DNA from: Planctomycetota bacterium | GTDB lineage: Bacteria > Planctomycetota > SZUA-567 > H5-PLA8 | Assembly (NCBI GenBank): GCA_023150555.1 | Contig: JAKLKQ010000021.1 | Span: 37,573 to 101,572, forward strand | Length of the DNA: 64,000 bases | Direction: 5' to 3' | In this document: piece by piece, positions 29,093 through 33,687 of the stretch | Layout of the letters: the number at the start of each line of letters is the position of its first letter | Position numbering within the stretch: the stretch's first letter is position 1 | Notes under the pieces: generated by a model | Told to the model about the DNA's origin: nothing | The model's database searches: none | Seen by the model: only the letters and a program-made list of their open reading frames with translations | Position numbers and translations under genes: made by a program

Positions 29093-30574
29093 ATGTTGTC
29101 CGAAGTCGAACAGGTTCGCTTAAGGATATCCAGAGCCACCGACGCGAAAAAGAAATCGCAGTACGGCCAGTTCTTCACCTCCGAACGCACGGCCGCTTTT
29201 ATGGCCGGACTGTTCCCGCGAAGCAAGGGGACCTGCCACTTGCTGGATGCAGGCGCAGGGATCGGTTCGCTTTCCGCCGCGTTTCTAGAGCGCTGGCGCA
29301 GCGGGGAACTGAAATTTGACCATGTCGAATTGGAAGCCTTCGAAATCGACGAGACCCTTCATGAGCCTCTGAACGAAACGCTCAGACGGTTCGACCGTAA
29401 GTCCTTTACCAAACGCGTTCGGGGCGACGATTTTGTCCTTACGGCCTCCGATTGGCTCTCGGGTACGCTCTTCATGTCGCCGCCACAATTTACCCACGCA
29501 ATCCTAAACCCACCGTACAAGAAGATTGGTAGTTCCTCCGCCCATAGAATCGCCTTGCGCCGAGTCGGAATTGAGACGGTAAATCTTTATTCGGCGTTCG
29601 TTGCGCTGGCCGTTTCTCTCTTAGCTCCTGGCGGCCAAATTGTTGCGATTGTACCCAGGAGTTTCTGCAACGGCCCCTATTACCGCCCCTTCCGGGAATT
29701 CGTCCTCAATCGGTGTGTCATTCGTCATCTCCATTTGTTCGACTCACGCGATAAGGCGTTCAAGGACGACGACGTGCTCCAAGAGAACGTAATCGTCCGG
29801 TTGGAGCGCGGCGGGCGCCAACAAGAGGTGACCGTTTCAACCTCCGGAGACGACACGTTCAGCGACATATCGACGCGCAAACATTCCTTCGATGCCATTG
29901 TTGAGCCGAACGATTCCGAACGCTTCATTCACATCCCAACTTGCGCTCCAGGAACTTCCGAAACAACAGGCTCCCCCGCGTTTCATCATTCCTTGGGCGA
30001 TATTGGGCTCAGCGTATCGACGGGGCCGGTGGTCGATTTCCGGCTTCGGGATCATTTGGTGCGGATGCCGGAAAAGGGATGCGTCCCCCTGCTATACGCG
30101 TGCCACCTCACACCCACAGGCACGGTCTGGCCTTTGCAGGACTCGAAGAAACCCAATGCCATCCTGCGAAACGACGAGACCGAAAAGTGGCTCTACCCCA
30201 ATGGGTTTTACTGTGTGGTCAGGCGATTCTCGTCGAAGGAAGAAAAGCGGCGAATCGTCGCAAGGGTTGTCGATCCTCGCTCGTTCAAGAAGACTCCCGC
30301 ACTTGGGTTCGAGAATCACCTCAATGTCTTTCACGAGAACAGGAATGGCGTTCCGGAGGCGCTGGCCCACGGACTCGCGGCCTACTTGAATTCAACCATG
30401 GTCGATGAAAGCTTCCGGCGGTTTAATGGACACACCCAAGTCAATGCAACCGACCTAAGGCAAATGAAGTACCTGAGCCGGCAGGACCTTATCGGTCTTG
30501 GAAAGTGGGCGATGAAACAAGGAATTCCTTCGCAGAGCGCGATCGATAAAAAGCTCGGAACATTGCCTGCATGA
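29093..30574 (+). CDS. Type II R-M N6-adenine DNA methyltransferase (BsuBI/PstI-like partner)
   Basis: LLDAGAGIGSLSAAF motif I and AILNPPYKK catalytic motif; 4-bp overlap with restriction gene. Confidence 0.9.
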   Translation: MLSEVEQVRLRISRATDAKKKSQYGQFFTSERTAAFMAGLFPRSKGTCHLLDAGAGIGSLSAAFLERWRSGELKFDHVELEAFEIDETLHEPLNETLRRFDRKSFTKRVRGDDFVLTASDWLSGTLFMSPPQFTHAILNPPYKKIGSSSAHRIALRRVGIETVNLYSAFVALAVSLLAPGGQIVAIVPRSFCNGPYYRPFREFVLNRCVIRHLHLFDSRDKAFKDDDVLQENVIVRLERGGRQQEVTVSTSGDDTFSDISTRKHSFDAIVEPNDSERFIHIPTCAPGTSETTGSPAFHHSLGDIGLSVSTGPVVDFRLRDHLVRMPEKGCVPLLYACHLTPTGTVWPLQDSKKPNAILRNDETEKWLYPNGFYCVVRRFSSKEEKRRIVARVVDPRSFKKTPALGFENHLNVFHENRNGVPEALAHGLAAYLNSTMVDESFRRFNGHTQVNATDLRQMKYLSRQDLIGLGKWAMKQGIPSQSAIDKKLGTLPA

Positions 30575-31530
30575 GCACGTCCAAAAGAAGTCGCCAAATA
30601 AGGGCCGCGCTCAAAATTCTGACGGCACTCGGATTACCGCGCGCACAACAGAACGAACGCTCGGCGCTTTGCCTGTTAGCCTTGTCGAGCATTACGCCAG
30701 AAAGGTCGTGGGCCGAGGCGGAGGCTCCGCTGATTGGCATCACGCCGATCATGGATTGGGCGCGGGACCACTACAGAAAGCGGTATGCTCCAAATACGCG
30801 AGAAACAATTCGCCGCCAAACCATGCACCAATTCTGCGATGCGGGCATAGCCCTTTACAATCCCGACAAACCGGATCGAGCGGTCAACAGCCCACATGCG
30901 GTCTACCAGATCGAGCCTGCCGCCCTGGAATTGGTTCGCCTTTGGGGGACTTCGAATTGGAACAAGGCACTTAAGACTTACCTTGTCGAAAGGGAAACCC
31001 TGGTCGCCAAATACAAGAAGGCGCGTGTTCAACGGCAAATCCCCGTCGAGATTTCGCCAGGGAAGAAAATTTCGCTCAGTCCGGGCGAACACAGCGAACT
31101 CATTCGCGCAATCATTGAGGACTTCGCGCCTCGCTTTGCCCCAGGAAGCACTCTCGTCTATGTCGGAGACACCGGCAAGAAATGGGGATACTTTGATGCC
31201 CCCTTGTTGTCGAAACTGGGCATAACGGTTGATTCGCATGGGAAGATGCCGGATGTTGCTCTTTACTATTCAACAAAGAACTGGCTGCTGCTTGCGGAGG
31301 CCGTGACGAGCCACGGTCCTGTAGACGGCAAACGCCATCAAGAGCTCGCTAAACTATTCGCCGGATCGACGGCAGGTTTGGTTTTTGTAACCGCCTTTCC
31401 CAATCGCACGGTAATGAGCAGATATCTTGGCGATATCGCATGGGAAACCGAAGTATGGGTGGCCGACGCGCCGTCACATCTCATTCACTTTAACGGAGTC
31501 CGGTTTTTGGGCCCATACGATCCATCTTAG
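30571..31530 (+). CDS. BsuBI/PstI-family restriction endonuclease
   Basis: ALKILTALGLPRAQQNERSALCLLAL N-term and TLVYVGDTGKKWGYFDAPLLSKLGI...HGKMPDVALYYSTKNWLLLAEAVTSHGPVDGKRHQEL catalytic region. Confidence 0.92.
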   Translation: MSTSKRSRQIRAALKILTALGLPRAQQNERSALCLLALSSITPERSWAEAEAPLIGITPIMDWARDHYRKRYAPNTRETIRRQTMHQFCDAGIALYNPDKPDRAVNSPHAVYQIEPAALELVRLWGTSNWNKALKTYLVERETLVAKYKKARVQRQIPVEISPGKKISLSPGEHSELIRAIIEDFAPRFAPGSTLVYVGDTGKKWGYFDAPLLSKLGITVDSHGKMPDVALYYSTKNWLLLAEAVTSHGPVDGKRHQELAKLFAGSTAGLVFVTAFPNRTVMSRYLGDIAWETEVWVADAPSHLIHFNGVRFLGPYDPS

Positions 31531-31602: not shown

Positions 31603-32412
31603 TTACGGGGGCAACGGCAGGCGGCCCATGCGCACCTCGATGGGCGTCCTGCCAAAGTGGCGCTTGAAGGCGCGAGAGAAATAGAACGGGCTGCCAAAAC
31701 GGAGTTTCTCGGCCACCTCCTTCACCGCGACACCGCCCTGAGCCAACGCGCTCCAGGCATAGTTCATGCGCCTGGCCACCAGATAGTTGTGCGGCGTCAC
31801 GCTGAACGTGCGCTTGAAGCAGCGGTGGAAATACACGGGGCAAAGGTGCACGCTTTCGGCGACGTCTTCCAGCGACGGATTCTCGAGGAAATGCCCGTCC
31901 ATGAAGGCCAGCGCGGGCTTGAGCGCCGCGAAGGCCTGCGGCGCCCCGGCGCCGCGCGGCGGGTCTGCCGGAGCCGGCAGCGCCATCCATTCCGCACAGG
32001 CCCACGCCAGCATGGCCTGCGTCCGGAAGACGTCGCGTGGAGATCGCGCGTCGAAGAGTTCCTGCATGCGCCGGTACACCGGCTTCCAGAAAGACCACTT
32101 CGCAGCCGGCCAGCGCAGGCCGCCGGCGAACCGCGCGACGACGAAGTTCATCTCCATCGAGTCGGGGCGGAAGTGCAACCAGTCGAGCGTCATGCGGCGC
32201 GCGCAGCGGTAGCGGATCCAGCGGTAGCCGGGCAGCAGGTAGATGTAACCGGCCCGCAGTTCCACGGTGCGGCCCCGATAGAGGAACTCCGCGCGGCCCC
32301 TGCGCGGGAAATACAGGCGGTGGTAGTCCGCGTACTGCCAGTCCGTGGCGCGCCACTTCGGCGTGCAGGTGAAGGCGCCGCCGCCCAGCAGGGCGCTCGA
32401 ATAGCTGTCCAT
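31603..32412 (-). CDS. AraC-family transcriptional regulator
   Basis: Double HTH: LEDVAESVHLCPVYFHRCFKRTFSVTPHNYLVARRMNYA...VAEKLRFGSPFYFSRAFKRHFGRTP. Confidence 0.93.
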   Translation of the reverse strand: MDSYSSALLGGGAFTCTPKWRATDWQYADYHRLYFPRRGRAEFLYRGRTVELRAGYIYLLPGYRWIRYRCARRMTLDWLHFRPDSMEMNFVVARFAGGLRWPAAKWSFWKPVYRRMQELFDARSPRDVFRTQAMLAWACAEWMALPAPADPPRGAGAPQAFAALKPALAFMDGHFLENPSLEDVAESVHLCPVYFHRCFKRTFSVTPHNYLVARRMNYAWSALAQGGVAVKEVAEKLRFGSPFYFSRAFKRHFGRTPIEVRMGRLPLPP

Positions 32413-32529
32413 GCCCTCACTCTACCCCGCCCGTCCCGGACCGGAAGTCAAGAAAAGACATGTTTCTGTCAGCTTAGTCCATTTAGAACCTGCCCCCGTT
32501 GCGTTAGGTTCATCCATGTCGCTTCCCCA

Positions 32530-32805
32530 AGCAGTCCGTTGAAAAAGGGGCCAGGCCGCGTTGCGAGTAATTTTCGCACTGAACGAGGCGCGCGAAGCGG
32601 AGCCGTAGCTGGAGGCTACGGCGAGCGTAGCGGAACGAAGTTCAGGACGAAAAGGCCCGCAACCCTTTGGGCAGCCTTGTCTTGCGATCCGGACCTGCGT
32701 TGCGCTTCGCTGCGGCGTATCTTCTCGATACGCCTCGACTATGCGCGCCTTGGTCCAAATCACAATCCAAGGCTGCGCGGCCTGGCCCTTTTTCAACGGG
32801 CTGCT
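32530..32805. mobile_element. MITE-like element with ~30-bp terminal inverted repeats and two internal nested hairpins
   Basis: Ends AGCAGTCCGTTGAAAAAGGGGCCAGGCCGCG / CGCGGCCTGGCCCTTTTTCAACGGGCTGCT; internal stems 32602-32609/32615-32622 and 32714-32721/32727-32734. Confidence 0.75.
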
Positions 32806-32829
32806 AGGCCCCGAGAGGAGTCCGATGCC

Positions 32830-33687
32830 ATGTCCCCTGACGCCGACGATCCGATGAGCCGCCGCGACCTCGCCTTCAAGCCCGTTTCAAATCCCGCGCC
32901 CAGGGTGCTGACGGCCGAACAGATCGAGCGCTACAACCGCGACGGGTACCTCACGCCATTCCCCATCTACAACGCGGCCGGCGCGGCGCGCAACCGCGCG
33001 TACTTCGACCGGCTCCTGGCGATGCTCAAGGCCTTCAAGGACGGGCGCGACACTTACGCGATCAACGGATACCACACGCACTGCCGGGGCATTTGGGACA
33101 TGGTCATGAATCCCGCGATCCTGGATATCGTGGAAGACTTGGTCGGCCCGGACATCGTCTGCTGGGGCACGCACTTCTTCTGCAAGCTGCCGCACGACCC
33201 CAAGTCGGTGCCGTGGCACCAGGACGCGTCGTACTGGCCGTTCACGCCCGCGCGCACCGTTACGGTTTGGCTGGCCATCGACGACACGGATACGGAGAAC
33301 GCCTGCATGTCCTTTCTTCCGGGCACCCACCGCCTGGGGCACCTGGCCTGGAAGCGCTCCGACAAGCCTGCGGTGCTGAATCAGGAGATCGAGGAGATCG
33401 GGCAGTACGGGCGCCCGGTGCCCGTGGAGTTGAAGGCCGGCGAGATCGAGCTGCACGCGGACATGCTTGCGCACGGTTCGCCGCCGAACACGTCCTCGCG
33501 CCGGCGCTGTGGGCTGACGATGCGCTATTGCCCGACGAGCGTGCGGTCCGTCAATGGCGGCTGGCGCAGCCAGGCCATCCTGTGCCGCGGCAGGGATCCC
33601 GACGCCTACTGGACGCCCGCGCCGCGGCCCGATGGCGAGGACTTGGCGATTCCAGCTAAGCGCAAGGAACTGATTGGCGCGAATTAG
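32830..33687 (+). CDS. Phytanoyl-CoA dioxygenase (PhyH)-family Fe(II)/2OG oxygenase
   Basis: In-frame ATG 32830; HQD...H metal motif (PWHQDASYW; ADMLAHGSPPN); LPGTHRLGHL. Confidence 0.88.
   Translation: MSPDADDPMSRRDLAFKPVSNPAPRVLTAEQIERYNRDGYLTPFPIYNAAGAARNRAYFDRLLAMLKAFKDGRDTYAINGYHTHCRGIWDMVMNPAILDIVEDLVGPDIVCWGTHFFCKLPHDPKSVPWHQDASYWPFTPARTVTVWLAIDDTDTENACMSFLPGTHRLGHLAWKRSDKPAVLNQEIEEIGQYGRPVPVELKAGEIELHADMLAHGSPPNTSSRRRCGLTMRYCPTSVRSVNGGWRSQAILCRGRDPDAYWTPAPRPDGEDLAIPAKRKELIGAN

Follow-up and report, generated by a model that had tools for sequence, protein, structure and literature searches.

The window, a stretch of 64,000 nucleotides from a Planctomycetota genome (G000; 6.62 Mb in 183 contigs), carries a short palindromic element, hereafter the MITE, in the upstream region common to an AraC-family regulator gene and a PhyH-family dioxygenase gene. 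The features of the locus are as follows.

31603 to 32412, minus strand: AraC-family regulator, the divergent neighbour (Pfam HTH_AraC, 5e-19)
32528 to 32531, no strand: left target-site duplication, CAAG, degraded from CTAG (copy alignment and flank table)
32532 to 32560, plus strand: left terminal inverted repeat (TIR), CAGTCCGTTGAAAAAGGGGCCAGGCCGCG (inverted-repeat search and copy alignment)
32561 to 32663, plus strand: left lobe, an imperfect hairpin with apical stem GCCGTAGC/GCTACGGC at 32602-32609/32615-32622 (fold and covariation)
32664 to 32670, plus strand: inter-lobe junction, within the conserved stretch CGCAACCCTTTGGGCAGCC (alignments)
32671 to 32776, plus strand: right lobe, an imperfect hairpin with apical stem GGCGTATC/GATACGCC at 32714-32721/32727-32734
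32777 to 32803, minus strand: right TIR, reverse complement CAGCCCGTTGAAAAAGGGCCAGGCCGC
32804 to 32807, no strand: right target-site duplication, CTAG (copy alignment and flank table)
32813 to 32832, plus strand: probable ribosome-binding site of the PhyH gene, with its ATG (32830) (sequence)
32830 to 33687, plus strand: PhyH-family dioxygenase gene, directly downstream of the MITE (Pfam PhyH, 3e-30)

The MITE ends about 6 bases ahead of the likely ribosome-binding site of the PhyH gene, and a terminator-like pattern lies at its right end. Elsewhere in the window, at 29093-31530, adjoining genes for an Eco57I-type methylase and a BsuBI/PstI-type restriction endonuclease form a probable restriction-modification pair.

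The original prediction described a 276-bp element at 32530-32805. The element itself stands, and its exact edges do not: alignment of copies, together with the flank table described below, places it at 32532-32803 (272 bp). The TIRs that had been proposed were recovered, 32527-32549 and 32786-32808 being 91% complementary, and 32543-32560 and 32776-32793 94%. In the minimum-energy fold 32561-32584 pairs with 32640-32662 to form the left lobe as claimed; the pairing of 32671-32695 with 32752-32776 in the right lobe was borne out at 80%, as were the inner stems of both lobes. Open frames crossing the MITE are parts of accidental ORFs, in keeping with the absence of coding capacity noted earlier.

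A genome-wide search yielded dispersed copies, so the sequence is not unique. The window's genome contains at least 18 near-full copies, the window's included, at least two more that are truncated at contig ends, and assorted fragments. The near-full copies are 78-92% identical to the window copy, that is, 8-22% divergent. When copies were aligned together with their flanks, similarity ended sharply at CAGCCCG...CGGGCTG, and the flanking DNA was unrelated among copies. Relatives of 275 bp with 76-78% identity occur in G006 and G003, both from a different genus of the family. Phage and plasmid collections gave no DNA match to the MITE, and comparison of copy flanks with the genomes of relatives recovered no clean match or clean junction representing an empty site. 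At one locus (L038) a MITE copy directly occupies the CTAG at the end of a different MITE. G011, a genome belonging to a different family of the class, has a 326-bp element with two lobes and this TIR (L119, 1501-1826), whose centre is like that of the window MITE.

To define the target-site duplication, 84 end pairs were tabulated with their flanks. The flanking 4-mers were identical in 49 of the 84, with consensus CTAG, and 32 pairs had CTAG on both sides; in control columns beside the 4-mer only 13-24 of 84 matched. The remaining end pairs differ by at least one base, which is what old copies would be expected to show. As CTAG is palindromic, the informative cases are the 17 direct pairs of non-palindromic flanks (CTAA 6, TTAG 6, ATAG 3, CTAT 1 and CCAG 1), against which stand only two exactly inverted pairs (ATAG/CTAT). 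The duplication is therefore 4 bp, and the window copy accordingly spans 32532-32803 with CAAG and CTAG alongside, the left one degraded. These data also bear on the idea that an IS630/Tc1-mariner transposase drives the MITE and duplicates only the TA within CTAG. Such a TA does lie inside the CTAG flanks, and one DDE_3 protein is encoded in the window's genome. However, in the CTAA, TTAG and ATAG cases the two flanks match out to the first and last base of the 4-mer, which indicates that all four base pairs are duplicated, and the DDE_3 genes that were found do not have this TIR around them. We rejected this highly improbable explanation on both grounds.

Ends of the type CAGCCCGTTGAAAAAGGG occur across Planctomycetota both on short palindromes, most commonly of 124-125, 133-135, 158 and 164-166 bp, and on insertion sequences (ISs) of 1.2-1.65 kb. 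The exact end TAGCAGCCCGTTGAAAAA was present in 20 of 392 Planctomycetota genomes, and the reversed control in none. Named records carrying the same TIR are mostly from planctomycetes, and G212, a genome of this phylum, contains a 2,600-base stretch identical to Thalassoglobus neptunius KOR42. At 10 distinct places a transposase homologue is enclosed by two such TIRs; the domains of these partner transposases are DUF772, DDE_Tnp_1_6 and DDE_Tnp_1. Among viral contigs of IMG/VR, two carry an IS with this TIR, one copy complete between its TIRs and one cut (L289, 5020-6538, and L290, 8771-9119).

A matching transposase gene was also found in the window's own genome, with only its N-terminal part assembled. 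It lies on contig 122, where it is cut by the contig end, and the part present is 51% identical to a Thalassoglobus neptunius protein. The edge of this IS is CTAGCAGCCCGTTGAAAAAGGG, and over 18 bp interior to the duplication it matches the MITE end, three bases further than the part common to the phylum; the first 18 bp of the left TIR of the window copy equal this own-genome IS end but for one base. IS and MITE ends agree past the widely shared bases within one genome in two cases, by GGG in the window's genome and by GTCG in G250; in G275 the two ends differ. Complete ISs with these ends occur in the genomes of relatives, while the window's genome has one IS end assembled.

The original prediction had offered two readings, a non-autonomous element or a structured RNA. 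The former is favoured by the dispersal of copies with sharp common edges, by the TIRs, by the 4-bp duplication and by the presence in this genome of a transposase gene accompanied by the same end. The window element is very probably a non-autonomous MITE of an IS5/IS1182-like DDE transposase with the same TIR, and from these common ends we infer that it would be mobilised in trans by that transposase. In the pathway we propose, the DDE transposase of the IS5/IS1182-like IS would bind both MITE ends, excise or copy the MITE, and insert it at CTAG-like sites with duplication of 4 bp. The two hairpin lobes carry no gene, and their pairing would most likely be upheld by template switching between the arms of each quasi-palindrome.

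The partner transposases were compared with established families. The best-scoring model was IS1182 (NCBIfam NF033551), which gave 163.6-214.3 bits for four full-length proteins, below its cut-off of 270; the IS5_4 model (NF033581) gave 85.9-124.5 bits, below its cut-off of 140. On these scores the partner group falls between IS1182 and IS5. The IS5 group makes a 4-bp YTAR target duplication, and a duplication of this type was found across the MITE/IS end family as well as at an element on plasmid pLB1. The transposase of the latter (BAF30450, annotated 'IS5 family') is 46% identical to a partner transposase, and the element, with ends CAGGCCGTTGACGAA and CAGCGCGGTGACGAA and CTAA on both sides, matches the end pattern and duplication size seen here. 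Further relatives are on plasmids of Pseudomonadota and Solidesulfovibrio. Members of the IS1182 family such as IS1272 resemble the partner transposases in combining DUF772 with a DDE domain and in having IS1182 as the best model. IS1272, however, targets and replaces hairpins without target duplication (PMC5678879, PMC4923244), whereas the partner group duplicates 4 bp and thus inserts differently.

Among small bacterial repeats, REP/BIME-type elements, which depend on a RAYT (Y1) transposase for their movement, would likewise give multi-copy extragenic palindromes. REPs are given as 20-40 bp in one account (PMC3733652), while the MITE has long TIRs, a 4-bp duplication and ends matching an element with a DDE transposase, so that this origin is scarcely credible. 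The window MITE resembles ERIC, Correia and RUP, which are bacterial MITEs and are similarly short, non-coding, bounded by TIRs, palindromic, multi-copy and target-duplicating. It differs from them in its TIR and transposase group, and in being double-lobed, with two inverted homologous hairpins inside.

The folding predicted earlier was confirmed against shuffled sequences. The plus strand folds at -166.6 kcal/mol, compared with -117.3 ± 5.7 for shuffles (z -8.7), and the minus strand gives z -10.1, with none of 200 shuffles equally good. Each lobe is a quasi-palindrome by itself, and the left and right lobes are homologous in inverted orientation (score 39, shuffled maximum 25). A consensus structure on 25 full copies had 97.2% of cells paired, with two-sided changes at 27 of 75 pairs; control structures shifted by 1-3 columns had 31-38% paired and 5-7 pairs changed on both sides. 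Such a stable fold and strong covariation, in a copy lying between a divergent regulator and the PhyH gene, are what a repeated structured RNA or cis-regulatory RNA family might display. Nevertheless, no Rfam match reached the gathering score and a lax threshold gave only chance-level matches; folding is of similar quality on the two strands; the copies are bounded by paired TIRs and a 4-bp duplication and have unrelated flanks; and interiors are wholly different between genera while the ends are unchanged. An RNA family is therefore very unlikely.

The way in which pairing is maintained was examined in changes specific to single copies. At paired columns in the window's genome there were 53 one-sided changes, 12 mirrored doubles and one non-pairing double. 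Individual copies can hold several mirrored changes, as with seven in C140 and four in C121b. Template switching between arms is described as a cause of such homogenisation (PMC8794818). Part of the mirrored pairing can be put down to selection for equal TIRs, which accounts less easily for the lobes; most likely the pairing of the lobes is kept by arm-to-arm template-switch correction, perhaps with a contribution from selection on the TIRs. Since either this correction or selection on pairing explains the mirrored changes, covariation is not evidence of RNA function here.

It is also conceivable, if rather doubtful, that selection for binding of a host or transposase factor, and not template-switch correction, maintains the hairpins. 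Recurrence of the left-lobe core under other TIRs and the clustering of element sizes noted above are in its favour. Against it, interiors are unalignable between genera, a candidate phylum-wide apical motif was dropped because only 9 of 63 elements held it, and the mirrored singletons of a single genome are what correction would be expected to leave.

The left-lobe core was also found inside CTAG-flanked elements of 166-169 bp with different TIRs, in the window's genome and in G006. Elements with this core and other TIRs, CTAGTGG... and CTAGTGTCCTG..., are at L038 (about 440-608), L053 and L075-L079; no transposase with either of these ends was identified. At L052 (612-735) there is an apparent chimera of a CAGCCCG-type left end and a CTAGTGG-type right part. 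The core under other TIRs, together with this chimera, suggests exchange of ends around a common core, in a handful of copies. A modular MITE, in which one palindromic core paired by template switching changes its ends and so outlives any one transposase, is a tentative extension that we regard as less probable than not. The end sets it would comprise are CAGCCCGTTGAAAAAGGG, TGGTCGGACAC..., TGTCCTGTAAG... and TGGRCCTTCAA..., each fitting a different CTAG-targeting transposase, and this assignment is speculative to the same degree as the modular reading of which it is part.

Five sites in the window's genome hold only CTAG-CAGCCCGTTGAAAAAGGGCTG-CTAG, or nearly so, with unrelated flanks (L164-L168; C137:32935, C140:1234, C44:119791, C141:18010 and C77:92920). 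These 21-bp palindromes consist of two TIR ends, and look like nearly precise excisions in which the DNA from the GGG of one TIR to the GGG of the other was deleted. Nearly precise excision has been described for Tn10, and the remnants resemble its outcome. The TAG of one remnant is the stop codon of a gene. An origin of the palindromes in which an IS end is duplicated in inverted orientation was considered on the basis of L150 (1399-1655; Thalassoglobus neptunius KOR42), where 126-bp arms from an IS end form a perfect palindrome, and was rejected. This structure may be an assembly misjoin, because its two flanks have their matches on different contigs in a relative and its arm length is near an assembly k-mer of 127; it may also be a MITE at its birth.

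The window MITE represents a new family within a well-known class of elements. Its 18-bp end recurs in MITEs and ISs across Planctomycetota and in some other phyla, and no description of this sequence turned up when the open literature was searched; the end therefore provides a label for these repeats, which at present clutter or break Planctomycetota assemblies. Covariation is commonly read as a sign of functional RNA, and the window MITE cautions against such a reading. Mirrored changes within individual copies document, in nature, the way in which long inverted repeats remain paired.
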